Shown here in pieces: positions 2,493 to 62,015 of a stretch of 64,000 bases of DNA (position 1 is its first letter; each line of letters opens with the position of its first letter). The stretch comes from Gonatopus flavifemur (taxonomy: Eukaryota; Arthropoda; Insecta; Hymenoptera; Dryinidae), in NCBI GenBank assembly GCA_018340375.1, contig JAFFJZ010000106.1, forward strand, positions 124,001-188,000, given 5' to 3'. A model generated the notes under the pieces. The model was given only the letters and a program-made list of their open reading frames with translations. It was not told the DNA's origin and made no database searches. Both the position numbers and the translations under genes were made by a program.

Positions 2493-3789
2493 GAACTACA
2501 GAACGATCAGTTTAACTTCACATGCTTCGAAAATACTGACCAAAATTATATACAGGAGGATGGAAAATAAAATAGAGAGTAGATTGGCAGAGGATCAGTT
2601 TGGTTTTAGAAAAAATAGGGGAACGTGAGAAGCAATCTTAGCACTCAGGGCAGTAATAGAGAAAAGGATAGCGCTGAAGAAATCTGTGTACATAGGTTTT
2701 GTAGATATACAAAAGGCTTTCAATAATGTGGACTGGGAGAAGATGTTTGCGATCCTGAAGAAGGTGGGAATAAATTATAAAGATAGAAGAATAATATACG
2801 AATTATATAAGAATCAAAGTGCAATAATAGACATAGAGGGTCAGGAAGGTGAAGCACAAATAAGAAGAGGGGTAAGACAAGAATGCTCATTATCGCCACT
2901 GATGTTCAATTTATATATAGAAGAAGCAATGAACGAAGTGAAGGAGGAAATTCAATCGAAATTACAGATTCAGGGAGAAAATATAAGTATGTTGAGATTC
3001 GCGGATGACATAGCTATATTGGCCACGAGTAGTACTGAGTTAGAAAATATTCTCAACACCATGAAAACAATATTATTGGAAAACTATTGTATGAATATAA
3101 ATAAAGACAAAACAAAATTCATGATGTGTACAGCAGCGAAAACAGCTAGAAGAACGAGAATCAAAATAGATACCGAGACAATTGAACAGGTGAAAGAATT
3201 CAAATATTTAGGAAGCATAATTACAGAGAACGGCAAAAGCGAAAGAGATATAAGAGCAAGAATAGCACAAGGGAAACAGGCTTTTTATCAAAAGAGACAG
3301 TTATTATGCTCAAAAAATATAAGCTTGCAAGTAAGGAAGAAATTCTTGAAAAGTTACGTTTGGAGCACAGCATTATATGGTTGCGAAACTTGGACAATGG
3401 GGAAAACTGATCAACGAAGACTTGAAGCTTTTGAAATGTGGTGTTATAGGAGGATGCTCAGAATAAAATGGATAGACAAAGTCAAAAATGAAGAAGTACT
3501 CGAGCAGATAAATGAAGAAAGAAATCTCTTGAAACACATCGTGAAAAGGAGAAGCAATCTTATAGGACACACATTACGGCATAAGAGTTTATTGAAAACA
3601 ATATTGGAAGGGAAAATGAATGGTAAAACTGGTAAAGGTAGACCTAGAGCAAGTTATATGAAGCAAATCGTACAAGACAAGGGATGTAGTAGATATGTAG
3701 AAATCAAACGTTTGGCGGATAATAGACAGGGGTGGAGGGTTTCATCAAACCAGTCGTAAGACTGATTACTTCATGATGATGATGATGAT
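2493..3789 (+). mobile_element. 5'-truncated RTE-like LINE with (GAT)n tail
   Basis: A non-LTR retrotransposon fragment that begins inside the reverse transcriptase domain and ends in a (GAT)n repeat at about 3772-3789. A 10-bp target duplication GTAGCTGTGA (2483-2492 and 3790-3799) flanks it. A truncated 5' end and a short-repeat 3' tail are usual for RTE-type elements. The insertion split the transposase exon without removing any of it. Confidence 0.85.
2508..3759 (+). pseudogene. RTE-like reverse transcriptase, truncated
   Basis: The frame shows the finger motif NYRTISL and then one stop codon (about 2627, in place of Arg in the QFGFRKNRGT stretch). The main open frame from 2686 holds the catalytic box FADDIAIL (about 2998-3021) and a C-terminal region with YGCETWT and a Trp/Cys-containing segment typical of BovB/RTE-like proteins. 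The endonuclease domain is absent because of 5' truncation. It would copy its own RNA at a nicked target if complete; this copy cannot. RTE assignment is by resemblance, and another non-LTR clade is possible. Confidence 0.8.
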
Positions 3790-18399: not shown

Positions 18400-19693
18400 C
18401 GAGGGTGGATTGATAAGTTTCCGGCCTGACCAAGAGATGGCGCCACTAGGCCTACCTTGAGGTGGCGTTCTATAGTACCATCCTTAGATAGCTTGTAGCT
18501 ATAGTTTCAGTCCAAACGCCATGTTAGTTTAGTTTTGAGAGCACGCTGACCAAGACGCCTCTGTGTTTTTCGTAAAAATGGAAAAGCTGGAAAATCGTGC
18601 TGTCATCAAATACTTTTATTTGAAGGGGTTAACGCCGAAGGAAATTAAAGAAGAGATGGACTCAACACTGGGGACATCCTCCCCATCATATTCAACCGTT
18701 AAGCAGTGGGTTTCCGAGTTTAAAAAGGGTCGTGTGAGCACCTCTGATGAGCCTCGCTCAGGACGCCCCATTGAGGTCACAACTCCAGATATGATCGAAA
18801 AAATCCATCAAATAGTGCTGAAAGATCGCAGATTAAAAGTTCGTGAGATAGCTGAGACCTGTAAGATGTCATATGAACGTGTACAAAATATTTTGCACCA
18901 ACATTTGTATATGGAAAAGCTCTGTGCAAGATGGGTGCCGCGTTTGCTAACAGTCGACCAAAAATTGATTCGAAAGAACATTTCTACCGCCAATTTGGCG
19001 TTGTATAAGCGTAATCCAAGCGAATTTTTGCGTCGATTCGTAACCGTTGACGAAACTTGGGTCCACCACTACACTCCTGAAACCAAAGAACAGTCTAAAC
19101 AGTGGATTGGACCAGGGGAACCAACTCCAAAGAAGGCAAAAACAATTTTTTCGGCGAACAAGGTTATGGCTACTGTTTTTTGGGATGCAAGAGGTATTAT
19201 ATACATTGATTACCTTGAAAAGGGTAAAACTATCACTGGTCAATACTACGCAGACTTATTGCAACGTTTGAGCCACGAAGTGAAAATTAAACGACCTCAT
19301 CTGGCGAAGAAAAAAATCTTGTTTCATCACGATAACGCACCAGCGCACACGTCAATCGTTGCGATGGCTAAAATCAACGATCTGAAGTTTGAATTAATGC
19401 CGCACCCTCCCTACTCTCCAGACCTAGCCCCGAGTGACTATGATCTGTTTCCTAACCTCAAAAAATGGTTCGGCGGTAAGAGATTTGCGGACAATGAAGA
19501 AGTAATCGAAGCTGTAAATGGGTATTTTGAGGAGCTTGACGAATCAGTCTATAGAGATGGCATTACTAGACTAGAACACCGCTATGAGAAATGTATCAGC
19601 CTTGGAGGAGATTATGTTGAGAAATAAAAAAAAAAAAATTCTTAAAAACGTTGTTTTTCTTGGTCAGGCCGGAAACTTATCAATCCACCCTCG
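18400..19693 (+). mobile_element. Complete mariner element
   Basis: A 1294-bp element with inverted ends CGAGGGTGGATTGATAAGTT and TA on both sides (18398-18399 and 19694-19695). The inverted repeats extend about 35 bp and look almost perfect. It contains one full-length transposase frame. Intact ends plus an intact gene suggest a recent arrival. It interrupts the upstream region of the pogo-like element. Confidence 0.95.
18578..19627 (+). CDS. Mariner transposase, apparently intact
   Basis: 349 residues from ATG 18578 (an upstream in-frame GTG at 18563 is less likely), the usual length for mariner transposases. The N-terminal half has paired helix-turn-helix DNA-binding regions with the linker GRP. 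The catalytic triad is complete: Asp158 in TVDETWVHHY, Asp252 in HHDNAPAH and Asp287 in YSPDLAPSDYDLF, giving DD34D. It would bind the terminal repeats and cut and paste the element at TA sites in the nucleus. The TAA stop is followed by an A-run. No frameshift or internal stop. I did not assign a mariner subfamily. Confidence 0.93.
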   Translation: MEKLENRAVIKYFYLKGLTPKEIKEEMDSTLGTSSPSYSTVKQWVSEFKKGRVSTSDEPRSGRPIEVTTPDMIEKIHQIVLKDRRLKVREIAETCKMSYERVQNILHQHLYMEKLCARWVPRLLTVDQKLIRKNISTANLALYKRNPSEFLRRFVTVDETWVHHYTPETKEQSKQWIGPGEPTPKKAKTIFSANKVMATVFWDARGIIYIDYLEKGKTITGQYYADLLQRLSHEVKIKRPHLAKKKILFHHDNAPAHTSIVAMAKINDLKFELMPHPPYSPDLAPSDYDLFPNLKKWFGGKRFADNEEVIEAVNGYFEELDESVYRDGITRLEHRYEKCISLGGDYVEK

Positions 19694-24547: not shown

Positions 24548-25831
24548 CAGGTTGGTTGAAAAGTTTCTGCGCTCGAAATGGGAAAATACTGTTTTTGTTA
24601 CGAAATATATTTTTTTATTCAATTTAATCTCATAGAAGCTCAATACACTCGTTCCAATGATCTTCCAATAATTTTATCCCATCTTTATAATGGTTTTCCG
24701 GAAGCTCTGCAAAATAACCGTCTACGGCTGCTATGGCCTCTTCATTCGACGAAAAATGCTTTCCACGAAGGAATTGTTTGAGATTTCTGAAGAGATAGTA
24801 GTCGCTAGGAGCCAAATCTGGCGAATATGGTGGATGTTCAAGCGATTCGTACTTGAGTTCTTTGAATTTAGCGATCGTCAAAACACTTTTGTGAACAGGT
24901 GCATTATCTTGATGAAAAATGATTTTTTTCTTCTTTAAACCAGGTCTTTTCTCACGAATTTGTTCATCCAGCTGATCCAAAAGGCTGCAGTAATATTCGG
25001 AGTTGATTGTTTTACCTCTCTGAAGATAATCAATGAACGAAATTCCTTTTGCATCCCAAAAAACTGATGCCATAACCTTCTTTGCTGATCGTTGTGACTT
25101 CACTTGCTTTGGAGCTGAACAACCAGTTTCAGTCCACTGTAAACGTTCTTGTTTCAATTTAGGATCATGGTGGTAGATCCAAGTCTCATCCATAGTTATA
25201 AAACGACGCAAGACGTCGGTTTTATTCTGCTTAAAACGCTCCAAATTACGCTGAGAAATTTGTTTTCGATCCAGTTTTTGTTGAATCGTTAACGTGTGCG
25301 GCACTAACTTTCCAAACAGTTTTTTCATACGTAATTCTTCATGTAAAATATGGAGTACTCGTTCGTCTAAGAGGCCTATAGCATTAGCAATTTCACGCTT
25401 AGTCAAACTTGGATCTTCACCAACCATATTATGTACATGCTCAATGATTTCTGCTGTAGTTGCAGTTTTTGGTCGTCCTTCGCGTGGATCGTCTTCAAGG
25501 CTAGTACGACCACGTTTAAATTCACCAGCCCAAAATTCAACGGTGCGTTTTGAAGATGAGGACTCCTTATATACTTTTAACAATTGTTCATAAATTTCCT
25601 TTGCTTTTAAACCCTTCAAAACAAAGAATCCAATGACTGCACGATATTCAATTCTTTCCATATTGAGAAAAATCAATGACACGTCAACTTCAAATGGCTT
25701 GTAAACAAAGAATGAATTGACAGAATGACTTGTAACTTTGCATTTGTTCTCAGGACAGATATACCAACTTGAGAAAAAAAAGTTTTGAGCTAGCAGTGCT
25801 ATCTCTTGGTGAGCGCAGGAACTTTTCAACC
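24548..25831 (-). mobile_element. Second complete mariner (minus strand)
   Basis: Inverted ends share GGTTGAAAAGTT and TGCGCTC, differing by a small indel near the tip, and TA lies on both sides (24546-24547 and 25832-25833). It encloses one intact transposase gene on the minus strand. The transposase is clearly different from that at 18578, so it is a separate mariner family. Confidence 0.9.
24630..25661 (-). CDS. Mariner transposase, apparently intact
   Basis: 343 residues from the minus-strand ATG at 25661-25659; the open frame extends further upstream, but that part is the transposon 5' end. Two helix-turn-helix regions are joined by GRPKT. The catalytic triad reads TMDETWIYHH, FHQDNAPVH and YSPDLAPSDYYLF with 34 residues between the last two Asp, hence DD34D. 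The full mariner length and absence of stops imply a gene that may still make protein. It would cut and paste its element into TA sites. Confidence 0.93.
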   Translation of the reverse strand: MERIEYRAVIGFFVLKGLKAKEIYEQLLKVYKESSSSKRTVEFWAGEFKRGRTSLEDDPREGRPKTATTAEIIEHVHNMVGEDPSLTKREIANAIGLLDERVLHILHEELRMKKLFGKLVPHTLTIQQKLDRKQISQRNLERFKQNKTDVLRRFITMDETWIYHHDPKLKQERLQWTETGCSAPKQVKSQRSAKKVMASVFWDAKGISFIDYLQRGKTINSEYYCSLLDQLDEQIREKRPGLKKKKIIFHQDNAPVHKSVLTIAKFKELKYESLEHPPYSPDLAPSDYYLFRNLKQFLRGKHFSSNEEAIAAVDGYFAELPENHYKDGIKLLEDHWNECIELL

Positions 25832-26116
25832 TACAGAACATCATGATGGGACCTTGTGAATATGTTTGAATTGTAAAATTCCAAATCACAGAATCTCAGA
25901 GATAGACTCTTTCAATATAACGTTCCAACATCCAAAACAATGCAGTACTTGCCATTTCAACGAATAGTATGTTATGCAACCGAGTATTCTTGATAAATGA
26001 AAGTTTCGAAATATTTTTTTTTATTGTTCATATCTCAAGAAGTGATTTTTGCCAATTAAGCTTTGTCAAAGAGAAAAAGTCATTTTAAGGGTACTCCTCA
26101 TGAATTTTATTACATC
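25832..26116. other. No gene recognised
   Basis: AT-rich DNA flanking the mariner, with no supported feature. Confidence 0.4.
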
Positions 26117-36036: not shown

Positions 36037-36299
36037 AACTTTCGTAAACAAAGTAACAGAATCGTGATTTGTGTTTGTTAAAATCGTTGACGACAACGAC
36101 AATAACAGTATTACAACACGGGAAGCGTGTGTATAACAGAAAAGAAAACAGACTGTGATTTGTTTGATTACGAGAATTGTGATTAAGTTAACGTTATGAA
36201 TAGAAATATTTAGTGTGGAATGTGAATTGATACATTCAAGTGCATGAAAACTTGCATTCTAAAGATTCGGAAAGTGAATTGAATCATTAATTCGAAAAC

Positions 36300-36968
36300 A
36301 TGGCGTTGTCCAGTTCGTTGATAAGTCTTCCTACGGGGTTATCCCTTAATGGGAACCTTAAAGAAAACCTAAGAACATTCAAGAGGAAGTTCGAATTGTA
36401 CGCCATAGCGAATAAAAAAGCAGTGGATAAACCTGAGATTGAAACTGCTATATTACATTCGTGTATTGGAGATGACGCCAACGATCTAATAGAGACCTTA
36501 AAACTGACAGATAAACCAGTTGCTGATATATTCGCGGGTTCACAAACATACTGCAACCCGGAAACTGATATAATTGTGGAACAGTTTAAATTTTTTCAAA
36601 GATGCCAACAACCAGAAGAGTCTTTTGATAGATTTTTATTGGAATTACGGAAACCAATAAAATCCTGCGAATTTGGAGATCTATCTGACAATCTTTTAGA
36701 GGTGAGATTGATTTTGGGATTGAAAGACAAGCTGTTGCAGGAACGATTGCTGCGAGAACCGGATGTTACGCTCGATAACACCATCAAAATTTGTCGAGCA
36801 TCTGAAATAGCGAAAGGAAGCCAAGCTACGGTCATGGAGATGACTCCACGAGGTGATGTAGTAGGTGACAAGGTCGTTACTGATGCGGTTGCTCTTTCCT
36901 ATGGGAAGGGATCACAAAACGGTACTAGATTGAAGAGTAGAAATGTTACCAACAACTGTGGTGAGTGA
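36300..36968 (+). pseudogene. Gypsy gag
   Basis: A 222-codon frame from ATG 36300 with helical capsid-like sequence (DRFLLELRKPIKSCEFG, LGLKDKLLQERLL), as in Gag of K02A2.6-like Gypsy elements. A stop at 36968 cuts it off before the nucleocapsid. The zinc-knuckle region is found downstream in another frame (36990-37125, CGRHHNKRNC and CHLCPALHHFAVGC). Gag would form the particle. This copy is truncated unless a frameshift is used. Confidence 0.8.
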
Positions 36969-36989
36969 AATTGGAATTCTGAGATGTCA

Positions 36990-38022
36990 TTGAAAGAAGG
37001 GGATCAACTCTACTGATTTAAAAAATGTGGCAGACATCATAACAAGAGGAACTGCCCAGCCTATAACCAAAGATGTCATTTGTGTCCGGCCCTGCATCAT
37101 TTCGCTGTTGGGTGTCCTCAACGGAATAAAAACTCACATGGGAATTCGCATTCAAATCAGAGTAGAGGCGGGGGCTCCAATAAGGTAGATTCAATTAGAT
37201 CCGAAGAAGAATTTGATGCATGTGATGGTGTACAATTGAATAATATTACATTATCTCAATGTAATAATTCGACTGTTACTAGAAACATGCTCTCGGTAAC
37301 GCATGATTTGAAACCTGCGAGTAATGATTCTGATTATTTGCTCGGGAAAACTAACGCAGGTACAAAGTATAGTAATGAACCATGGAGAGAACCTTTGTTT
37401 TTTGGAGGAAAATATGAGATTAATTTTAAATTGGATCCGGGGAGTGACGTTACAACTTTGCCATTGAGCATTTTCTTGAAAATGAAAGATATGTACATGT
37501 TAGACCACATGTCTCAGAGTCATGTTACCGCGCATGCTTACGAAGGTTCAACGGTGAAAGTAATAGGGACAATTCAGTTAAAGTTTAAGTGTAGAAAAAT
37601 CGAAACAGAAAGAACATTTTATATCATAGATGATAATGAAATACCTAACTTAGAACCGCTATTGAGCCGAATGATGTGTGCAAAGCCGAATCTGATACGG
37701 AAAATAGATAATGTAGGGGCAAGAGTAAATAAGCGAGAGAATATATCTAAAGAAATTGCGTTCAAGGATAAAAATGATATCATCGCGAATTTTCCTGATG
37801 TATTTGAGGGTATCGGGAAATTTCCTGAGGTTTATAACTTCAAACTAAAGAGAGATGCTATACCACGACAGGAATCGTATTCTAGAGTCCCACTGAAACT
37901 TAAGCAATCGTATATAAAAAAATTAGAAGAACTTATACAAAAGGGAATTCTCAAGAAAGTTAATGAACCGGTGGAATGGGTCAATGAGATTGTCATAGTA
38001 GAAAAACCTAATAAGAGTTTTG
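36990..38022 (+). pseudogene. Gypsy nucleocapsid tail, protease and start of RT
   Basis: After the Cys/His knuckles comes a spacer and then a retropepsin-like segment with FKLDPGSDVTTLP near 37420-37460. The Thr/Ser of the usual Asp-Thr-Gly is Pro here, a change expected to harm the active site. From about 37790 the reverse transcriptase N-terminal region follows (NFPDVFEGIG, GILKKVNEPVEWVNEIVIVEKP). A one-base shift near 38017 moves the rest of RT to another frame. Confidence 0.8.
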
Positions 38023-38665
38023 AGAGTGTGCTTAAATCCACAAACGCTAAACGAGAATCTCATAATTGAAAAATATCCTATCCCGAGTTTGAAAGAATTA
38101 GTACCGGATCTCAAGGCAAAGAAATATTTCACCCTCTTAAACGTAAAGGATGCGTTCTATCACATTGAGCTGGGGAATGAGTCAAGTCACATGTGTTCAT
38201 TTTCATCACCAATAAGCATGTTATGTTTCAAACGTATGCCGTATGGTGTCAATGTTGCACCCGAAGTTTTCCAAAAATTAATGACGAAATATTTTGGAAA
38301 TATAGAAGGAGTTATCTTGTATTTTGATGATATGTTGATCGCGGCAGATACAAAGGAGGAAATGGATGAAATTATAACTGAAGTGCGTAATAGAGCTCGT
38401 TTATATAACGTTAGATTTAACCCGGATAAATTGGAATATTGTCAGTCCAAAATTAAATTCTTAGGGCATGTTTTTGATAAAGAAGGTATGTCTGTTGATC
38501 CAAAACGAGTTGAAGCAATTCAAGCTCTCAAGAAGCCTAGAAATAAACAAGAAATTCAAAAATTCTTAGGGGTTGTGAATTACGTTAGGGAATATATACC
38601 CAATTTGGCTGAAATAACACAACCATTATGCGAATTGTTGAAGGAAAACGTGGAAATTCATTTGG
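38020..38665 (+). pseudogene. Gypsy reverse transcriptase core
   Basis: Contains RVCLNPQTLN, YPIPSL, LLNVKDAFYHIEL, CFKRMPYGVNVAPEVFQ, the catalytic YFDD (38320-38331) and FLGHVFDKEGM. In the first catalytic motif, usually L-D-x-K-D-A/G-F, the first Asp is Asn here (codon 38140-38142). That Asp binds metal in known retroviral and Ty3 enzymes, so activity should be lost. A frameshift near 38655 follows. Confidence 0.85.
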
Positions 38666-39190
38666 ACACACGTTCATGATAAGGCAATAAACCGAATTAA
38701 AGACTTATTGACTCAGTCTCCAGTATTAGCAAACTTCGATCCGGAGAAAGAAGTTGTAATACAAACTGATGCGTCCCAGTCAGGTATAGGTTCATGCCTT
38801 ATGCAGGGTGGTAAAATCGTATCATACGCGTCTCGATCGTTGACTGATAGTGAAAAAAGATGGGCACAGATAGAAAAGGAACTTCTTGCGATACAGTTCG
38901 CATGCCAAACTTTTCATCAATATATTTATGGATCTGTTGTAAAAGTCCAAACTGATCATAAGCCTCTTCTTGCAATTCAGAAAAGTATATCGCAAATAGC
39001 AAATAATCGATCAAAACGCATCAGAGAGAAGCTGTTCCTTTATAATATAACATTGGAATATATTCAGGGTAAAAATATGCTCGTAGCCGATTATTTGAGT
39101 AGAGATTATTTGTCCGCAATTGAATTCAATACAGATAGTGAGGAAAATGTATTTATTCATGGTCTCTGTACATCGGAGTTAATAATATCG
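38666..39190 (+). pseudogene. Gypsy RNase H
   Basis: The frame carries PVLANFDPEKEVVIQTDAS (first acidic residue), KRWAQIEKELLAIQFA (Glu), VQTDHKPL (Asp) and NMLVADYLSR (Asp), the usual Gypsy RNase H set. It would remove the RNA template during copying. Another shift near 39190 separates it from integrase. Confidence 0.85.
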
Positions 39191-39207
39191 CTCAGAAACG
39201 TTTAGAA

Positions 39208-40710
39208 TTGAAGAAAGAAACTGCTAAAGACCAAATATTGAGTAAAGTCTTGAAATTTTATGTTGAGGGTTGGCCTAAATCGGGAAAACATTTGGATAAC
39301 AAAGATTTGAAAACATATTTTGATCAGAGAAATGATATTTCAGTTCTCGATGACCTTTGTTATTTAAATAACAAATTGATTATACCTAAAAGTTGCCAGA
39401 CCTATATCCTCAACACTTTGCATGAAACCCATGTGGGGATGAATAAACTGAGTGAGCAAGCGAATCAATTATTTTATTGGCCGGGAATGGTATCAGATAT
39501 AAAATTATTTATACGAAGTTGCGAAACATGTCAAAAATTCGCAGGGAGTCAAATAAAGTTCTCCTTGGTTCAACACGAGGTTCCTAAAGTGCCATTCTCG
39601 AAAGTTGGGATTGATATTGCAGACTACCAAGGAAATCCATACCTAGTCCTCCAAGATTATCATTCAAGATGGTTGGAGGCAATAAAACTAACCAATAAAA
39701 CATCAGAAGCTATAGTAGTCCAACTGAGGGAAATATTTGCACGCTTTGGAATTCCGAAACAAATAGTAGCAGACAACGTTCCATTTCCAAGCGCACATTT
39801 TGGTAAATTTGCAAAGAAATGGGGTATTGAAATCCTTTCGACAAGTCCATACCATTCTCAGTCAAATGGACTTGCTGAGAAGGGAGTAGGAATATTCAAG
39901 GATATGATCAAAAAATCAGGGCCTGAAAATATTGAATTATGCCTGTTAAACTATAATAACTCTCCGTTATCAGGATCAGGTATAAGTCCTGCTCAGTTAC
40001 TTCAAGGTAGATATTTAAGGTCTAAACTACCTATATCTGAAGAAAAATTGAAAACAAAAAATTATTACGTCGGTGCAAAAAATCAAATGGATGTGAAACG
40101 ACAAACAACCAAAATGAGGTATGATAAAACAAGTTGTAACAAAGATATCATAGAGCCTGTGAATTTTAAGCCAGGGGAAGTTGTTCTAACTAAGAATAAT
40201 TTGAATAACTCATGGGAGAAAGCAGAAATTATGAATAAGGTAGATGCGGTGCCTAGATCATATTTATTGAGAAATAAAAAGGGAAATGTTATCAGGCGAA
40301 ACATAGTATTGATAAAAAAGTACATTGTAAGACCAGAGCGATTTTGTGATCCATCGAGAATTCAGACACGCGTTTCAGCAGTCCAGTCCCGGGCTCCGTA
40401 CTTCGATGATATTGATAATCTATTAGATAATGAAAAACATGTTGAACTAGAGGTAATTGATAATCTCGCACTCGGGGCTCCGGATGTTGAGGGGGGTGCT
40501 GGACCCTTGATGGAAATGGAAGTCTCCGATCATGAGTCCTTAGAGGATGATTCGTTAGTTGAGTATGAGAGTGCTGAATCTACGGACGAGGATTCAAAAG
40601 AGATCAACGTTGGATTTGGTCCGGGCGATGGAAATGTTGAACCTATGAATCACCCTTATCGTACAAAAAGTGGTAGAATGAGTAGGCCTCCAGGAAGATT
40701 AAATTTATAA
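39208..40710 (+). pseudogene. Gypsy integrase, long intact frame
   Basis: 500 codons. The HHCC zinc region reads HETHVGMNK and CETCQKF. The core has Asp136 in GIDIADYQG, Asp189 in VADNVPF and Glu224 in NGLAEKG, i.e. DD35E. The C-terminal part (KPGEVVLTKN, AVPRSYLLRNKKGNVIRRN) is followed by an acidic Glu/Asp/Ser-rich tail (about residues 400-475) and ends in a basic stretch. This is the best preserved gene of the element but lacks its own start, because it is normally part of the Pol polyprotein. Confidence 0.88.
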
Positions 40711-52740: not shown

Positions 52741-54539
52741 TCTTCCAGGAGTTGTTGAGCCCTCTACAACCAATTTCTAAAGTGCTGCTCAGGTCCTTCT
52801 GTTTCGGCCTTCACCGGAGTGACATGGAATGAAAAAAAAAAATGTGAATAAAAGGTTTCTGACATGCAGAATAATGATTCCAGAATTGTTTTTCCAGTAG
52901 ATATATATTCTGAAATTCAGTTCCTATGATGGAACAATTCAATATAATATAATTATAATCAATCTTATTGGTATTACAAAATTATTCAATCATCCGATAA
53001 TACTTTAAACTATCGCTGTTGAATTTAAGAAAGTGGAATTACACATCGGCAAGCGGACTGTAAATTAACTGATAACCTAAATTTATCATGATTGATTGAG
53101 GATGAGACGAATTTACTCTTACGCGGACCGCAGCATAAAGAAAAGACTCGCAACTTACAAACAAAAATTCTGGCCAGAATTAAGCGCACGATTCGAATTA
53201 TTTGCAGGGTAAATGATGAAGTTCCTCCTGGAAGATTTTGAATTAAACGTTGATGAGTCGGTCGAAACGTGATCGGAGATCGAGACGTCGAAAGGTGCAT
53301 CTCAGAAGATTAAGAACCTCTTGAAACTTTGATTCTTCCTTTAGGATGAATAACGTGAATCACGGTTCATCATTCCACCGTGAGCACAAAAATTCCTCCA
53401 CTTATATTCCCGTAAATATGTGAAAATGATGATCGAGGCGTGTACATTAGACGGGAGTTAATCGTGCTCTAGCCATGCTTCAAACGTCGTTACACGAGCG
53501 ACGTACGAATAACAACGCCGAGAATCAGCGGAGAAGGGGATCGATCCAAATTCAAACGATCGAAAATAATTTGAGATCGAACACCTTCACTGATTCTTAT
53601 TATCTTCCCGAGCCCTTCGACGTGGGGAGAATTCATTCAAGAATGTGTGAGGCTAGCGATCCTTCTGACGCGTCCTGACGAACGTATCATATGAGTACAC
53701 GGAAACAGATTGAATAACATTAAGGGTTGATTGAGAGAATGATTTTCCGTCACTCCGAGAGAATACACTCTCGGTTCAAGTGAACTTTCTTTAATCCGAT
53801 CTTCGTTTTTGTTTTGTATCTCCAATCCAATTGGAAGGCCAGATCGAGGAATCGGTTGTGCGCGTGACTTCTTGTGCAGTGCAACTGAAAATAGACAATC
53901 ACCGCCCATCGCATTTGAAGACTTCCATATTGGAAATGAATGAGAAAATCGCGATACTGAGAAAACTCCCAGTGGGAAAGTTGTTGCACATCTATTCAAC
54001 AAAACTATGTGGAATTTTGAGACAATGCAGTATCGTAGGTGGGGGATTATTTCAGGTGGAATAGAAAAAATGCCGTATGCATTGATTGAGATGTTGGGAT
54101 ATTGGTGTTTGCAAAGGAGATGAAAATTCTCATTCACACGTAGTTGTTGTTGGTGGAAAATCATTCCCAGAAGCACTTCACACAAATGGATGGAATATTC
54201 ACATTGTTTGTTCATAAAATGATCATTCCTTACACAGAAGAACACCATATTATGGTTATTTGAACGTTTTATTGGGACGAACTAATAACTGGATGTTGAC
54301 GAATCTGAGGACATAAACGCTTCTAATCATTCAACATGGTTCTTGAATGATATGTTCAATCTAACAAAGTCAATTCCGCGATTATGATGTTGATAAACAA
54401 CATATCTAATCATCCTCAGTTTAGATTCTGCTTCAATGAACGATCAAACCCCGGAGATACATGAAACATTCTGCTGGATAGAAAATATTTTTATTCCAGT
54501 AAATTGAATTAATTTCTTTCATTTAGCAGAAGAACGACG
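52741..54539. other. Interior of copy 1, no gene recognised
   Basis: Mixed noncoding DNA. A short stretch around 53240-53290 contains TGATGAGTCGGTCGAAACG, vaguely hammerhead-like, but the stems do not form convincingly. Confidence 0.35.
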
Positions 54540-54770
54540 AATCGAATGTTATGGAATCAACATGGGCCAGATTTTCCATCGAAATTTGTCTCCTGACGTT
54601 CCGAGTGGTTTCCACCCATCATCAAAGGCACATTCCGGAGGAGGGATGGTGCAGTGAAATCGCTCGGACCCACTTCCATCGGGGGAGGGTTGAAATACAA
54701 AATTCTACCCAAAGTGGCTGGGACCGTACTCGTGGACACAATCGATCAGTGAAATGAATGACGGATGATC
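54540..54770 (-). repeat. ~230-bp repeat family A, copy 1 (minus)
   Basis: Shares with 56210-56880 a ribozyme-like motif, a GGAGGGATGGTGCAG segment, a CACTTCCATCGGG segment and a CGTGGACACAATCGATCAGTG segment. Carries a hammerhead-like motif at 54592-54628. Confidence 0.8.
54592..54628 (-). ncRNA. Hammerhead-like motif, family A copy 1
   Basis: Minus strand: stem I CCT/AGG, core TTGATGA, stem II GGGTGG-AAA-CCACTC, then GGAACGTC. The usual GAAA is GGAA here, which should reduce activity. Confidence 0.45.
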
Positions 54771-56209
54771 CTGTGATGTGCCTACCAAATACAATTCCGG
54801 TGAATGCAAATGAAAAATTATCAATATCAACGATTTCTCCTAATGGTTTTCTCGGAAGAAAGTAATAACATTTAACAGAACTGGAGAAGAATTGTAATTC
54901 GAGAAAACACTTGAGGGAGTGGGATAGAGACGAAATATTGGAGACATAGAACAACTCCTCTGCATCTATCCATAACGAAAATGAAAGCGTGCATGCATGC
55001 AAGGAAGGATAAACGAATTCACCTAAGATTCTCTATCATTGGACCTCCTGTTGTCATCATTTTCAAACTCATTGAACTTTTTGTCAAATAATCATCATAA
55101 CATATCGATATGCGAAGAATTCGCTTACATTCTTCTGTTCATATAAAGATTAGGTCACTTGCAACATTTCGATGTGCGAAGAATTTGCTGAAACTGCATC
55201 GAGCTGAGTCCAAGGTGGCCCGCACACCTTCCATCCATCCCCTCCCTAATTCATTACTTCTCTCTGACACACATTCATTGATTATGGAGCATGGCAACTG
55301 AAATCGGCAAAAATCCAATCGCGTGATTCCCCACTCCCAACGGCTAAAAGAAATCATTCGCTCTTTTAAATGAGAGCGATCCTGATGGAAAGCCAGAGTA
55401 TACTTCCGGGATGTATCGGGGATACGCCTTGCAAAAGCAAGCTCGATAACACGCGGATTCACCAAGTTAAACGAGACAAAGTTCTCGTTTGGTACCGTGA
55501 TCGAACTCGCGCAAGTTCCACGTGCCGGTAACAATTTTTGACGGAATACCTATTCCGCCAAACCCGTTTGTACCGCTCTTACTCTCTTATTCAAATCTTC
55601 GCACTCGGACTTCCCGAGTTAATTTTCAAGTCAGAGTATTACTTAATTCAGTGCATCCAAACCGTATCCAAACTCCTGATCCAGTTGCCACCATCTACAA
55701 GATCTTGGTCGCTCACTTTGGATCCAGCTCGCAGCCAGATAGTCAAAGGTCAGCTTGAACGGGAGTAGGTTCGTAAATTGTTCCTATATATACACACATA
55801 CACATACACAAACTATCTCGATGTCACTGTTAAACATCTTGTCACTAAAAAGTCATTGTATCTGTTATTCCATTCTATTCAAATCGTTTCATTGTGATAT
55901 CTTTCATTTTTTTTTCTCTCTCTTTCTCTTTCCGAAAGGAATGGATATCAAAGCGAATAACACTCGCATTAAAAACTAAAGCTCAATCAATCAGTTCATT
56001 TCTCTTCCCTTTCATCATCAGAAAGAAATCATTGAACATATCTACAGGTGCCGCCTTGGAATTCGAAGTTCTTCGGCAGGCTTAGAACGTGAGCAGACCC
56101 ACACATTCGATTCGGTCTAGCCACTCGGGCCGTTTCGAACAATAAATAATATGTGACGGGGTGATATGAACTACACTTGCCATCTCACTTCGTAACAATC
56201 CATTTACGA
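54771..56209. other. Between family A copies, no gene recognised
   Basis: Contains a CA/TA-rich microsatellite (about 55788-55815) and a pyrimidine-rich run (55900-55930). Frames lack motifs. Confidence 0.4.
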
Positions 56210-56243
56210 GTAATTAAGCCAGATTTTTTATTAAAATTCGTCG

Positions 56244-56280
56244 CCTGACGTTTCGAGTGGTTTTTACTCATTATCAAGGG
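56244..56280 (-). ncRNA. Hammerhead-like motif, family A copy 2
   Basis: Minus strand: TTGATAA core (U3-A8 in place of C3-G8), a shorter stem II GAGT/ACTC, then GAAACGTC and AGG. Confidence 0.45.
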
Positions 56281-56465
56281 TACATTTCGGAGGGGGGATG
56301 GTGCAGTCGAACCGCTCGGAGCCACTTCCATCGGGAGGGGTCGAAAAACCAAATTTTACCCAAAGTAGCTGGAACCGTACTTGTGGACACAATCGATCAG
56401 TGAAATGAATGACGGGTGATCCATTTACGAGTAATTAAGCCAGGTTTTCTATTGAAATTCATCTC

Positions 56466-56502
56466 CTGACGTTTCGAGTGGGTTCCACCCATTATCGAAG
56501 GT
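56466..56502 (-). ncRNA. Hammerhead-like motif, family A copy 3
   Basis: Minus strand: TCGATAA core, stem II GGGTGG-AAC-CCACTC, GAAACGTC and AGG. Confidence 0.45.
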
Positions 56503-56525
56503 AACCATCTCCCCTCCGGAATGTA

Positions 56526-56562
56526 CCTTTGATAATGGGTGGAAACCACTCGAAACGTCAGG
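56526..56562 (+). ncRNA. Hammerhead-like motif, family A copy 4
   Basis: Plus strand: CCT, core TTGATAA, one extra T, stem II GGGTGG-AAA-CCACTC, GAAACGTC, AGG. The cleavage site would follow GTC. Stem III would be only the two pairs of ACGT, as in dimer-type hammerheads. Confidence 0.5.
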
Positions 56563-56745
56563 AGACAAATTTCAATAAAAAACCCGGCTCAATTGCGCGT
56601 AAATGGATCTCCCGTCATTTATCCCACTGATCGATTGTGTCCACGAGTACGGTCCCAGCTACTTTGAGTCAACATATGTTTTTAAACTCCTCCCGATGGA
56701 AGTGGGTCCGAGCGATTTTACTGCACCATCCTTCCTCCGAAATGT

Positions 56746-56781
56746 ACCTCTGATGATGGATGGAAATCTCTCGAAACGTCA
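56746..56781 (+). ncRNA. Hammerhead-like motif, family A copy 5
   Basis: The only copy here with the exact CTGATGA core, followed by GAAACGTC, but its stem II (GGATGG/TCTCTC) is poorly paired. Confidence 0.45.
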
Positions 56782-56926
56782 GTAGACAAATTTTGATAAA
56801 AAAACCTGGCTCAATTACTCGTAAATGGATCACCCGTCATTCATTTCACTGATCGACTGTGTCCACGAGGACGGTCACATCTACTTGGAGTAAAATTTTG
56901 TTACTCATACGTTTGTCCAAACGCTC

Positions 56927-57553
56927 CACAGGCATTTCACTTCAACAACGACCAGTGTACCGTTTTTCCGGCGATTTGCTATCATGAGGAAGGAGACCAC
57001 GTGAAACATCGAAGTTACGTTTTTTGCTCAGATAGTTCCAAACTCGACACTTCCGCTGTTTACGCCATCCGAATGTCAAAAATTCCGGAAATTATACGTC
57101 ACGTGAGGAAGCTCGAGAAGATAATTCATATTGGTGACGGAACCAAGCAGCATTCCGAAAATAAATTCCATCGCGAACTCACTTCACCATAAAGAAGATT
57201 TCAGCATAGAAGCAGGATGGCATTAAAGTGCGACCGCTCGCGGTGAGAGTATCTGCGATGGAATCGGTGCCGCATTCAAACGAGAAGCATATAGAGCAAG
57301 TCCTATCGTCAAACCACAGGATTCACTCCTCCCACCGAGAAATCATTACACAAGCATCAAAGTGATACATTTTAATGAGACGTATCATGAGGAAATGACC
57401 CGAAAACTCAACAAACGGTTTTCAGAGGCTATCCGAGTGCCGAAGATTCTCCGAAATCATAGATTCGTTGTACTTCCCGACAATAAGGTGATGATCAAGA
57501 GGTTCCCCAATGACAAGGGTGAGCGTGTGTGGTATCCGAATAAGAAGAACTGA
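56927..57553 (+). pseudogene. 3' part of an unclassified transposon protein
   Basis: Three frames in succession show continuous protein-like sequence. First AFHFNNDQC and VFCSDSSKLDTSAVYAIRM (to 57192), then in a second frame LHHKEDFSIEAGWH, a stop, and ICDGIGAAFKREAYRAS (57175-57340), then in a third frame HEEMTRKLNKRFSEAIRVPK and KGERVWYPNKK (to 57553). The LHHKEDF..W..ICDGIG segment is widespread in uncharacterised insect transposon proteins and may be an RNase-H-fold nuclease part. Two frameshifts and a stop make it non-functional. The 5' end is cut by the repeat cluster just upstream. Confidence 0.6.
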
Positions 57554-57889
57554 GATAGGTCATACGACAGTCCATCCATCGCGATAGATGAGGAAACCAA
57601 TCGGCCCTTCTAAGGGCCACTCGATGTGCAAAGTCCGATCGCGCAACATCCTCGTGACGCACATTGGATAATGCTCATGCTGAGAGCTGGGGATTGTATT
57701 TGAGGTGATCACATTGATTCTCTCCTTATATTAGCGCTCCAGCTCTCATTTTATCACGATGACATGTCATGACGGTTCACCTAGAATATCGGTCTTCGGA
57801 TCTATGAGAGAATCTTCATCAATATACGTACACTTTGTGCCAAAATTATTCTGATAGAATGAGACGGAGTCTGATTAGGGTCTGATACC
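57554..57889 (+). other. 3' flank of the transposon protein
   Basis: Noncoding; leads into the right arm. A short GC-richer stretch (57590-57660) may be the element's 3' untranslated region. Confidence 0.35.
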
Positions 57890-58603
57890 CACAACGGTAT
57901 GCAAAATTCTGTGGTACCAAATTTCATGTCGGCTGTATTGGAACCATCATATTAAATTTTGGGAAATCAACTCAAGATTCGTGTTCAGCGACCCTCAAAA
58001 CTCCCTGGTACCGATTCTCCCTGGGATCAGCCATGTTTCGGATCCTCAGTCTGCCATATTGGAACCGTCATGTTCAATTTTTGGGAAGTAACCTTGGTTT
58101 CGTGTTCAGCGACCCTAATAACTCCCTTGTACCGATTTTCACAAGGATCGAGAATGTTTCGAATTCCAAGTCCGCCATATCGAATTTCAGGAAACCGGCC
58201 CGGGATTAGTGTTCCAGCGACCCCCCAAACCCCCGAATACCCATTCTTGGTGCAATCGGAGGAGTTGAATTTTCCGACCACCATAATGAATCCGTCATTT
58301 GCAATTCCAGGAATCGCGCCTCGTAAACGTAATTCAGAGGCACACGACTATGGTGAGCAATGATAAAAACGATCCGTAGAGCACTCCGCGCGCTCTTATA
58401 TCTGGCTTTGGTGATTTCGACCTCGACCTTTCCGTGATTCACCCACCATATTGGTGAACATGAGGCTCCAATCGAAAAACACCAGACGGCATCAAAAAGT
58501 GGAGGCTTCAACGGAAATTTTGAATACCTTCTGAGATTTTTATCCTCAAAAACAGAATGTGCAGGGGGGTGGTGGCTGATTTCACAAATAATCCCCTATA
58601 TAT
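57890..58603 (-). repeat. Right minisatellite arm, copy 1
   Basis: Inverted copy of 52033-52740. The outermost tip reads, on the minus strand, TGAAATCAGCCACC and a C-run before TGCACATTTT. Confidence 0.85.
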
Positions 58604-59266
58604 ACCTATACCTCCAGAATGTATGTGCGAATACATGCATTACATATATACGTATATGTATACATGTGTATACCTCCAGAAACCTAATTTCTTCCAAAAA
58701 TGATGTTTGCTTTGATGTTTGAACAATTAGTTTTTCTGAGATCATGACGTTTGCTCAAATTCCATGTGGATTTCTTTGAGATTCAAAAGTATTATTCGTT
58801 TTCGCTCCTCCGACTTTGCAACGTTTTCTTTACGTACGGATATACAATCTTTTTGACCTGGCATCGACCTTATAACTCCACCATCCCGATGAAAATTTTT
58901 AACTGTATTTGTGATTTCTCCAGTTAATTTCCGCCCACTTTCTTTCTTCTATACTTTTGGTGATATATGAGATTATTCTCTAAATTTCCTTGCGTTCCTA
59001 ACCAGATATTCGCTGCATTCAAATTCCGCCCGTATCTTAGGAATTGTCCATTTTTTTGGAATAAACTCAAAATTTGATATTATTTAACGAATGTATCTGC
59101 AGATTTGAATTTCTTTTGTGACAATCTTTTGTTTCTGAGATCGGCGCTTTTTTGTTCCACTAGTGGCAGTCTTTTATCACTCATGGTGTGAAATCAGAAC
59201 ACATTTCTGTGTGTAGTTGTGATTTTGAGCTCAAGTGCAGTATGAATAATTTACTGAAACATAATA
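58604..59266. other. Flank with TATATA/TACATG microsatellite
   Basis: 58600-58680 is rich in ATGTATA-type steps. No gene recognised. Confidence 0.4.
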
Positions 59267-59935
59267 ATGGAGTGTTCAGTTGGTTCGTTTTTGAAAGAAG
59301 ATTGTCGCAAATTAACTCATTCGCGATCATCGAAGTCGATAAGTGCAAATGAACCAAGTGATACTAATAGACAGTTATTGAAGAAACGATTACAAATCGA
59401 TTCCATCACCAATATTTGTACATATCATCATCGTCAATATGTGCAAGAGTTCTCCCATCTGTTTGGTGACGAATGTTGTGATCCGTTTGATATTCACAAA
59501 AAATTCATTCATGAATCTTCAAAAGAAATCACAATAGAATTGAGTTTTACAAATGAGAATCTACATCTTGTGCCTGGCCACGCAATTTGTTCACGGTCTA
59601 TCGATATTTTGAGTGATAATAATATCAATGTTGATAATACTAGTGAAGATGCTCATGGGGTATCATCATATATTGACTCCTGAAGCAATGTTCAATTTTT
59701 CGGTGCAATGAAATTCCTGGTATCAAGTTTCTCTTTGTATCGAATTCTGATATTCAAGTCACTGACAACTTTTTATCTCAATGGTTTAGGAATGCGAACA
59801 CTATTGAGGATACAAGAACGTATCACAGTTTTTTTCCTCTCCCTCGCTATCAATTAAAAGTCCCCAGATATTCACCTTCCAATAAATTCGAAATTGTTGA
59901 TGTGGTGAGTTCATCAAAAACAGAAGTATCAAGGG
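59267..59935 (+). pseudogene. N-terminal region of an unrecognised transposon-type protein
   Basis: A 138-codon frame with a possible zinc-binding arrangement (ICTYHHRQYVQEFSHLF..CCDPFDIHKK, about 59410-59510) and later HAICSRSIDIL. It ends at 59683, but similar codon content continues to about 59935 in another frame. Cys/His-rich N-termini of this kind are seen in uncharacterised insect transposon proteins; the family is not assigned. ATG 59267 is preceded by an AT-rich leader. Confidence 0.4.
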
Positions 59936-60350
59936 AAAAGTGATACAAAATCGAATAACTTCCGATTCGATTTCTTTCAATTATATTATATTCAACCTTT
60001 CATTTTTGCATCCAACGTTGTTGTGTTATATATGGAATCATGATTGACAATGAATTGTAAAACAAACATCTTTCATTGGGAATCATTTATTTCTTATTTT
60101 TGTCAGATGTCATGATATCAGAAAAACTAATTCCTCAAACATGATAGTTTTTGGAAGAAATCGGTCTTCCGGAGGTTTGTAGATTCAAAATTCCTTATTC
60201 ACGATGTCATCATCGGAGTATGGTATGTTTATTCACTCGTAGGTTGAGGAAAGTGGAGTTGGCAGATGCCCGTATCGTTCCTTATTAACGGATAGAAGAA
60301 GTCCAATATCGCGGGCAATGGCGAATAACTTTCATTTGAAAAAGTATAAT

Positions 60351-60386
60351 CCAACGTTTCGACGGAGTTTCGGCTATTTTCAAGGA
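60351..60386 (-). ncRNA. Hammerhead-like motif, family B copy 1
   Basis: Minus strand: TCC, core TTGAAAA, T, stem II AGCCG-AAACT-CCGTC (imperfect), GAAACGTT, GGA. The cleavage triplet would be GTT, permitted by the NUH rule. Confidence 0.4.
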
Positions 60387-60701
60387 TAATACAAAATCAT
60401 AATGGCGAAGGATTTGTCCGTTCCATCGTCGTTACAAAACCTCGTTGACAAGGGGACAGAGGTAGAATTAGAATATTCACTCGTAGGTTGAGGAAAGTGG
60501 AGTTGGCAGATGCCCGTATCGTTCCTTATTAACGGATAGAAGGAGTCCAATATCGCGGGCAATGGCGAATAACTTTTATTTAAAAAAGTATAATCCGAGT
60601 GACCTACGAGTGAATATTTTAATTCTACCTCTGTCCTCTTGTCAACGGTTTTTTAACGACGATGGAACAGACAAATCCTTCGCCATTATGATTTTGTATT
60701 A

Positions 60702-60738
60702 TCCTTGAAAATGGCCGAAACTCGGTCGAAACGTCGGA
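60702..60738 (+). ncRNA. Hammerhead-like motif, family B copy 2
   Basis: Plus strand: stem I (A)TCC/GGA(T), core TTGAAAA, one extra T, stem II GGCCG-AAACT-CGGTC, GAAACGTC. All three stems form as far as they can in a monomer. Confidence 0.5.
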
Positions 60739-60946
60739 TTATACTTTTTTAAATAAAAGTTATTCGCCATTGCCCGCGATATTGGACTTCTTCTATCCGT
60801 TAATAAGGAACGATACGGGCATTTGCCAACTCCACTTTCTTCAACCTACGAGTGAATATTCTAATTCTACCTTTGTCCTCTTGTCAACGAGGTTTTTTAA
60901 CGACGATGGAACAGACAAATCCTTCCCCATTATGTTTTTTGTATTA

Positions 60947-60983
60947 TCCTTGAAAATAGCCGAAACTCGGTCGAAACGTGGGA
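60947..60983 (+). ncRNA. Hammerhead-like motif, family B copy 3
   Basis: Plus strand: as copy 2 with stem II AGCCG/CGGTC and GAAACGTG in place of GAAACGTC. A G at the cleavage position breaks the NUH rule, so this copy should not cut. Confidence 0.4.
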
Positions 60984-61066
60984 TTATACTTTGTTAAATA
61001 AAAGTTATTCGCCATTGCCCGGGATATTGGACTTCTTCTATCCGTTAATATGTTATGTGTATATAT

Positions 61067-62015
61067 ATGTATGGGGCATCCTTTGTCAGATCAGCCACCC
61101 CTCCTGCGCATTTGAATTTTTTAATTAAAAAATGTTTGATGGGCTTAAAGATTTCGTTGGAGTGTCTACTTTCCAATGCCGTATGGTACTTTCCGAACAT
61201 GACGACTATTCAACCAATATGGCAGCGGAAACGAAGAGGGAACGTGATGATGATGATGATGATCAAAACCGGTCATAAAACTATGATACACGGGGGTTGG
61301 ATAATTCTGTGGATTGTGACATGCAATTCGAGCATCTCGGATTAATTGCATCCGGTTGGAATATTGGAATTGCAAATGGTGGATCCAATATGGCGGCCGG
61401 AATTTCGGAATCACTCTGAATTTCCTGAAACGTGAGGAGAGGGGGTTTTTGGGGTCGCTGATGACGAATCCGAACTCAGATTTCCGGAATTACGAATAGC
61501 GAATCCAATATGGCGCTCAGAAAATTTCTAATTCACTTCAATTTGTGGAAACATTACCATCCTGAGGGTTGTTTGGTCTCTGATCACGAATCCGGACTCA
61601 GATTTCCGGCATTGCGAATTTCGAATCCAATATGGCAGCCGGATTCTCAGAATCACTCCGAATTCCCTGAAACATGGGAGAGGGGAGTTTTTCGGGTCAC
61701 TCATGATGAATCCGAACTCAGATTTCCGGAATTACAAATAGCGAATCCAATATGGAGATTGGAAAAATCTGATTCGCTTCAATTTATGGAAACATCAACA
61801 TTCTGAGGGTCTCGTGATCGCTGATCACAAATCCGGACTCAGATTTCCGGAATTGCGAATGGCCCATCCAATATGGCGGTCTGAAAAATTCTAAATCTCT
61901 TGAATTTGTAGAAACATTGTCGTACTGGGGTTTTTGGGTTCGCTGATCACAAATCCAAACTCAGATTTCCGGAATTGCGGATGGCGAATCCAATATGGTG
62001 ATTATTCTACTGTTT
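61067..62015 (+). repeat. Minisatellite arm of copy 2, ~121-bp units
   Basis: GATTTCCGG recurs at 61479, 61601, 61721, 61842 and 61964, spacings of 122, 120, 121 and 122. Each unit also has GAATCCAATATGG. The frames crossing it are repeat translations. Confidence 0.88.

Follow-up and report, generated by a model that had tools for sequence, protein, structure and literature searches.

Minimal hammerhead motifs with a predominantly U3-A8 core in repeat arrays probably derived from Penelope-like elements of Gonatopus flavifemur

A stretch of 64,000 nucleotides from the dryinid wasp Gonatopus flavifemur (assembly GCA_018340375.1, contig JAFFJZ010000106.1, positions 124,001 to 188,000; hereafter the window, at its full length) contains eight short hammerhead-like motifs distributed over two repeat families, A and B. 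These repeats are very probably the pseudo-long terminal repeats (pLTRs) of Penelope-like elements (PLEs), equipped with minimal type I hammerheads, and the window copies would be arrays devoid of the element's open reading frame (ORF), in which two arms of pLTR units stand head to head. In both families, as well as in further motifs of the same genome, the hammerhead core mostly carries a U3-A8 pair, unlike the textbook C3-G8.

An earlier sequence-only reading had described eight motifs with a common order of parts, and all eight (A1 to A5 and B1 to B3, 37 nt each) exist at the positions and on the strands listed in Table 1. They share a 3-bp stem I, the core, a U, a 6-bp stem II with a 3-nt loop, GAAAC, GUC and the second side of stem I, with a stem III made of an A-U and a C-G pair only, positions being numbered by the usual hammerhead scheme. 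The strings quoted in the sequence-only reading are all exact in four motifs (A2, A4, A5 and B2), while all twelve pairs (three in stem I, six in stem II, 3-8 and two in stem III) form in A1, A3, A4 and B2, thereby leaving A4 and B2 as the only two of the eight that are complete in both respects. The deviating strings are GGAAC instead of GAAAC in A1, TCGATAA in A3, and GTT and GTG instead of GTC in B1 and B3, respectively; according to the NUH rule for the cut-site triplet, the GUG of B3 would be uncleavable. Besides, the stem II proposed for family B, GGCCG/CGGTC, does pair, but is really 6 bp long (GGCCGA/TCGGTC), as in family A. In both A4 and B2, UGA, A9, GAAA and GUC are present, an extra U follows A9, stem III comprises 2 bp without a loop, and a U-A pair replaces C-G at 3-8. 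The extra T, already pointed out from the letters, fits the PLE of Anolis, whose start codon lies at the beginning of stem II (PMC11167929).

With regard to the 3-8 pair, U3 and A8 were found in 114 of 114 copies of family B, a sample biased by a search pattern that fixed U3 and allowed A or G at position 8. The 42 copies of family A, five of which lie in the window, show U-A in 31 cases, U-G in six, C-A in three, G-A in one and C-G in one. The idea that family A originally had the C3-G8 pair of A5 was rejected, since U3-A8 is found in those 31 of 42 copies. Exchanged Watson-Crick pairs at 3-8 were reportedly found by Przybilski and Hammann in 2007 to keep activity in some hammerheads. C3-G8 motifs coexist with U3-A8 motifs in the Gonatopus genome, and compensatory mutants of the catalytic core are thereby available in nature. 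That C3 and G8 pair in the hammerhead is stated in the available part of PMC2837043, and in the Anolis element the double change C3G/G8C partly restores cleavage (PMC11167929). A natural U3-A8 hammerhead was not recognised in the literature searched, which is not proof, the 2014 and 2017 papers on PLE hammerheads lying outside the comparison.

The stems were claimed to differ between the two families while pairing in both, and covariance support, whose absence had been named as a sign against the hammerhead interpretation, was found in the window set as well as in C3-G8 and U3-A8 motifs collected genome-wide. Across the eight window motifs, 90.6% of the 96 pair cells are standard, compared to 80.2% in shuffles (0/500 as high) and 17.5-46.6% when the partner is slid, and the covariation score exceeds those of all 500 shuffles; the structure tested had been read off those very sequences and, since the copies within a family are related, this covariation reflects a contrast of two families and not eight independent sequences. 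Stem I is covered by the window set only, and stem II by all three sets. In the same genome, the C3-G8 form gave 39 matches vs 6 for the reversed control (35 distinct strings, or 31 after folding a 5-variant unrelated repeat into one, of which 27 were long enough for four pairs and 26 for five). When stem II ends in C (C11.1, n=13), 54 of 65 stem II cells pair, with a shuffle mean of 38.6 and 0/5000 shuffles as high, whereas the excess is absent from the motifs lacking C11.1 (24/65 vs 25.3). In the same line, a search for U3-A8 motifs of different stem length (16-20 nt, so that the 15-nt families A and B are excluded) gave 51 matches, 50 of them distinct, vs 11 in the control: 98 of 135 cells pair in the 27 motifs with C11.1 (shuffle mean 66.1, 0/5000), and the 23 without it show an excess too (57/115 vs 42.7, 10/5000). 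Some of these matches being copies of one family, the shuffles do not represent independent events. Nonetheless, a paired stem II across motifs with different stems suggests a fold preserved with several stems, in which 3-8 is found both as C-G and as U-A. A dispersed repeat, GACGTTTCAAAAAATTCCTGCTACTGGAATCTTCAG, also fits the C3-G8 search pattern, for example at G000:C1:3044455; an excised copy of it (L165) has no hammerhead stems.

The assignment of the family B repeat to the pLTR of a PLE arises from its association with a predicted PLE-like reverse transcriptase ORF. The unit is about 244 bp long, against about 221 bp in family A, and in two further loci, L093 and L094, B units flank an internal region of about 5 kb with open frames, both ORFs being interrupted by internal stops. 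Pieces of these ORFs match RVT_1 (E 1.7e-15 for one L093 piece) and, among solved structures, reverse transcriptases of retrons and group II introns (E 7e-6 to 2e-4). Homologues number 1475 proteins at E <=0.001 among 7994 scored, some of them carrying PF01541, and of the 120 matches listed, nine carry an organism name, all of these being ant proteins with 38-47% identity. By eye comparison of L093 and L094, the ORF appears to start with MEQTNPSP near the end of the B unit, which would thus be the pLTR, its first base lying about 10-13 nt ahead of the hammerhead. For comparison, the published Penelope pLTR measures 193-218 bp and includes the first 12 codons, in the portion of PMC3846280 at hand. 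In the window, a tblastn search with the PLE piece matched only the first 45 residues, encoded by the pLTR, and the remainder of the ORF is absent. Taken together, the family B pLTR with its reverse transcriptase ORF, the anatomy of the family A insertions and the stem covariation back the earlier proposal of hammerhead derivatives of Penelope type. The two families had also been called unrelated; both resemble PLE pLTRs, though their units align over only 59 bp around the hammerhead, at 64% identity (blastn).

Several results weigh against this interpretation. In the window set, two of the five covariation measures are unremarkable, since 28 of 500 shuffles reach the number of pairs changed on both sides and 479 reach the number of different pairs. 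A check by hammerhead covariance models, suggested in the sequence-only reading, gave no match in the window: no Rfam hammerhead family reached gathering across it, and none was found at E <=10 over 54000-61500 or around B2 and A5, in a scan run without a known PLE hammerhead as positive control. Matches to MIR9563, Leu_leader and mir-2856 were dismissed since they span palindromic centres. Among five single motifs folded (z-scores from -0.5 to -2.2), B2 alone shows stems I and II in its best fold, and the best fold of A4 retains stem II with the core paired elsewhere; moreover, the dimer as modelled falls short of the best cofold in stability (A4 -15.5 vs -23.9; B2 -18.5 vs -22.7). The GIY-YIG domain scores 17.4 and 19.4 bits in the family B ORF pieces, below the Pfam cut-off of 22.6, and a genome search for PF01541 gave one match, outside all studied loci. 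As for a family A coding element, no PLE match above noise was detected in the four stretches examined, located between arms or next to them (L166-L169), full-length copies not having been searched for. Finally, only one of 61 cDNA 5' ends coincides with the cut (that of L115, whose proper position by eye is about 7 nt away), and 8 of 61 lie within 5 nt of it, 2.75 being expected (P 0.006, uncorrected and the best of six widths); a few of these 61 starts are restarts that follow inserts (L103, L106 and L120), and a further 16, located where the pLTR begins (199), were excluded. Although the left B arm of the window starts 0-2 nt from the cut, such starts were rejected as proof of cleavage in vivo, given the lack of a clear pile-up over the 61 starts; for those near the cut, the exact position is often blurred by overlaps at the joint. 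Cleaved RNA is hence not shown to be the template, in agreement with the Anolis element, whose insertion in vitro does not require cleavage (PMC11167929).

These data bear on the possibility that the motif is no longer catalytic, owing to its U3-A8 pair and loopless stem III, and has been retained as a binding or priming site of the PLE protein, its likeness to the hammerhead being a fossil. The weak folds of single motifs, the cDNA ends without clear pile-up at the cut and the cleavage-independent insertion of the Anolis element would all suit such a loss, which we nevertheless regard as unlikely: both C-G and U-A are found at 3-8, no member of the family B sample departs from U3-A8, and the catalytic letters are most commonly GAAAC and GUC, which a mere binding site need not preserve. 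The conservation of the motif relative to the rest of the repeat is modest, both in family A (0.943 vs 0.913, 17 of 221 windows as high) and in family B (0.988 vs 0.968, 6 of 245), and no conclusion was drawn from it, since the B loci had been selected by the motif.

The anatomy of the insertions was studied at 44 places for family B, namely 40 fetched stretches, L070, L073, L074 and the window, with unit coordinates counted from the first base after the cut. Most of the fetched loci are arrays without a long ORF region. Two arms are present at 28 of the 44 places, the window included, and are head-to-head in all 28, the remaining 16 being one-armed. Outer ends were sorted, by limits set after viewing them, into tailless (60-80 in family B, 55-75 in family A) and tailed (112-134 and 105-130, respectively). 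Among the 21 two-armed B insertions with both outer ends classed, 20 combine one tailed and one tailless arm, the exception, L093, having two tailed ends; seven others (L070, L091, L094, L095, L119, L123 and L126) are unclassed, and L093, L094 and L095 may be composites in view of the long stretches between their arms. Family A was fetched by similarity to the whole unit and not by the motif, and its 18 hand-tabulated insertions (L144 and L145 left out) are by eye all head-to-head; 14 of 15 classed ones have one tailed and one tailless arm, L141 having two tails, with L133, L134 and the window array unclassed. It is by this anatomy that family A is proposed to belong to the PLEs. Over both families, the one-tailed rule thus holds in 34 of 36 classed insertions, for which an independent even choice would give P ~1e-8, bearing in mind that the class limits are post hoc. 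Such a count of tailed versus tailless arms was not recognised in the literature searched, again no proof with the 2014 and 2017 PLE hammerhead papers outside the comparison. In addition, the 22-nt flanks of B insertions share a word of at least 7 nt in 16 of 28 cases, compared to 25 of 756 mismatched control pairs. At L106 and L120, inserts of about 1 kb split B arms near unit positions 71 and 112-114, close to the sites of arm ends.

Head-to-head arms could also arise by self-priming (snap-back) of a single cDNA, as proposed for the rotifer Penelope, where it was deduced from palindromic junctions in the part of PMC3846280 consulted. In the present data, this origin appears rather improbable. 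While the abutting arms of L096 begin only 16 nt apart in unit coordinates, those of the other 20 of 21 abutting B insertions start 41-122 nt apart (arm-start pairs having been entered by hand), which is unexpected from a snap-back cDNA; besides, 12 of the 21 show overlaps of 1-13 nt between the arms, resembling end joining, and one arm is tailed and the other tailless. Close palindromes are unstable and may be lost, and the spacing of at least 41 nt in 20 of 21 insertions perhaps reflects the loss of tight palindromes.

That the arrays would be metazoan non-LTR retrozymes, which are non-autonomous and follow a circular RNA route, is very unlikely. The tandem units of about 221 and 244 bp, the single type I motif in each and the low GC content do recall the retrozymes in the sections of PMC7229834 consulted, but B units flank a PLE-like ORF and end at two fixed places, like PLE tails, and the loop that closes stem III in canonical retrozyme hammerheads is absent here. 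As for a chance resemblance in an AT-rich repeat, the shortness of the motif and the core or stem lesion present in six of the eight window copies speak for it, but its probability is practically nil in the light of the shuffles, the viral-contig stem check and the reversed genome control: the core-plus-spacing pattern has five matches in the window, whereas 100 dinucleotide shuffles gave none, a 31-nt pattern allowing three mismatches at most has 124+112 = 236 places in the 636-Mb genome (about 100 of them listed individually) and 0+0 in the reversed control, and the level of covariation was reached by 0 of 5000 shuffles. All genome patterns required the extra T, and thereby cover motifs that contain it. 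In viral contigs, 69 stretches fit a looser core pattern, none of which has 3 bp in stem I as well as in stem II, and the canonical motif has no match; the family A string likewise has none in the prokaryote genomes searched.

In the proposed mechanism, each full pLTR would contribute one minimal type I hammerhead, and the hammerheads would form in transcripts of tandem pLTRs, probably by pairing between neighbours or with the help of the element's protein. The self-complementary ACGU of two adjacent copies could form a 4-bp stem III, a proposal based on geometry and disfavoured by the energies. Cleavage after GUC would trim the multimeric RNA to units, and the reverse transcriptase would prime on both strands of a staggered break, from two internal start sites, to yield one tailless and one tailed cDNA arm with their 5' ends joined in the middle of the insertion. 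Given one tailed and one tailless arm and the two-site precedent of Anolis, two priming events per insertion are the simplest reading. Tentatively, and with less than even confidence, it may further be proposed that a set of PLE families has swapped C3-G8 for U3-A8 while remaining catalytic, and that integration is a coupled two-ended priming, in which each strand of a single target break would begin at a different one of the two sites of the pLTR RNA. If so, the U3-A8 PLE families would provide double mutants of the ribozyme core as a series made by nature; as regards the arms, one tailed and one tailless per head-to-head insertion makes the puzzle of the tail testable as coupled priming on both target strands.

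A few other features of the window deserve mention. A structure resembling the histone 3' UTR stem-loop lies at 57598-57643 on the plus strand (25.1 bits, the family cut-off being 34), and tandem repeats of about 120 bp, at 57936-58180 and 61366-61998, flank the B array. By eye, long frames at 18539-19627 (plus strand) and 24630-25895 (minus strand) resemble mariner transposases, and those at 36291-40710 are gypsy-like. A Pfam scan of 10 of the 47 listed window ORFs gave one match, RVT_1 at 2629-3759, a frame that by eye belongs to another kind of retroelement.

Table 1. Hammerhead motifs, pLTR arms and associated features in the window
Feature	Position	Strand	Remarks
Hammerhead motif A1	54592-54628	-	U3-G8; A13 -> G, likely dead
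Hammerhead motif A2	56244-56280	-	U3-A8; broken pairs: one in stem I, two in stem II
Hammerhead motif A3	56465-56501	-	U3-A8; U4 -> C
Hammerhead motif A4	56526-56562	+	Intact: 12/12 pairs, U3-A8 core, GUC
Hammerhead motif A5	56747-56783	+	Only C3-G8 copy; three stem pairs broken
Hammerhead motif B1	60350-60386	-	Cut site GUU; two stem II pairs broken
Hammerhead motif B2	60702-60738	+	Intact: 12/12 pairs, U3-A8 core, GUC
Hammerhead motif B3	60947-60983	+	Cut site GUG; one broken pair in stem II
Family A pLTR fragment, single copy	54563-54771	-	blastn with A unit
Family A left arm, two hammerheads, pLTR units read leftwards	56198-56503	-	Outer end near unit position 49, unclassed
Family A right arm, two hammerheads, pLTR units read rightwards	56504-56902	+	Outer end tailed (unit position ~121)
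Family B left arm, ~1.5 leftward-reading pLTR units	60230-60598	-	Outer end tailed (unit position ~123)
Family B right arm, ~1.8 rightward-reading pLTR units	60602-61050	+	Tailless outer end, unit position ~70
Likely PLE ORF start codon (MEQTNPSP...), near pLTR 3' end	60662-60664	+	By-eye comparison with L093/L094
Possible target-site duplication TATGTT, left copy (weak in this copy)	60224-60229	+	
Possible target-site duplication TATGTT, right copy	61049-61054	+	2-nt overlap with arm end

Hammerheads in PLEs are already known, their minimal forms having reportedly been treated by Cervera and de la Pena in 2014 and by Lunse, Weinberg and Breaker in 2017. The window motifs similarly lack the stem III loop and lie in tandem pLTRs, and the two families together with the further motifs appear to differ by the U-A at 3-8. 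In the portions available of PMC7761336 and PMC6155905, PLE minimal hammerheads are described as type I motifs lacking stem III, present in tandem pLTR copies, which may cut as dimers.

A close parallel is PAc, the Poseidon element of Anolis, in which the tail is the stretch between two reverse transcriptase start sites, both strands are cut and extended, and the hammerhead, located at the junction of pLTR and ORF, needed the protein (PMC11167929). Common to PAc and the present families would be the two start sites that define the tail and the extension of both strands. PAc has C3-G8, however, whereas the window families mostly have U3-A8, and no difference in start sites was seen between its strands whereas the insertions classed here mostly use one of each. 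In addition, the PAc ORF starts at the stem II AUG; in family B this AUG opens by eye a frame of just 13 codons, the PLE ORF starting about 195 nt beyond it (L093).

The Penelope of Adineta vaga, as far as the accessible part of PMC3846280 goes, has a head-to-head inverted pLTR and an optional tail, and shares with the present families the size of the pLTR, the first ORF codons within it, the head-to-head inverted arrangement, the tail on one arm and short target-site duplications. The main text of that paper never uses the word hammerhead and, by contrast, the B loci fetched here are mostly arrays lacking the long ORF region, and the one-tail rule was counted. Metazoan non-LTR retrozymes, in the part of PMC7229834 consulted, have tandem units of about 170-400 nt with a type I hammerhead in common with the window repeats, but their hammerheads are canonical whereas the motif is minimal here and linked, in family B, to a PLE-like ORF. 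Finally, the pDo500 satellite of Dolichopoda, according to the sections seen of PMC2837043, is likewise an insect tandem repeat that carries a hammerhead with compensatory stem changes.

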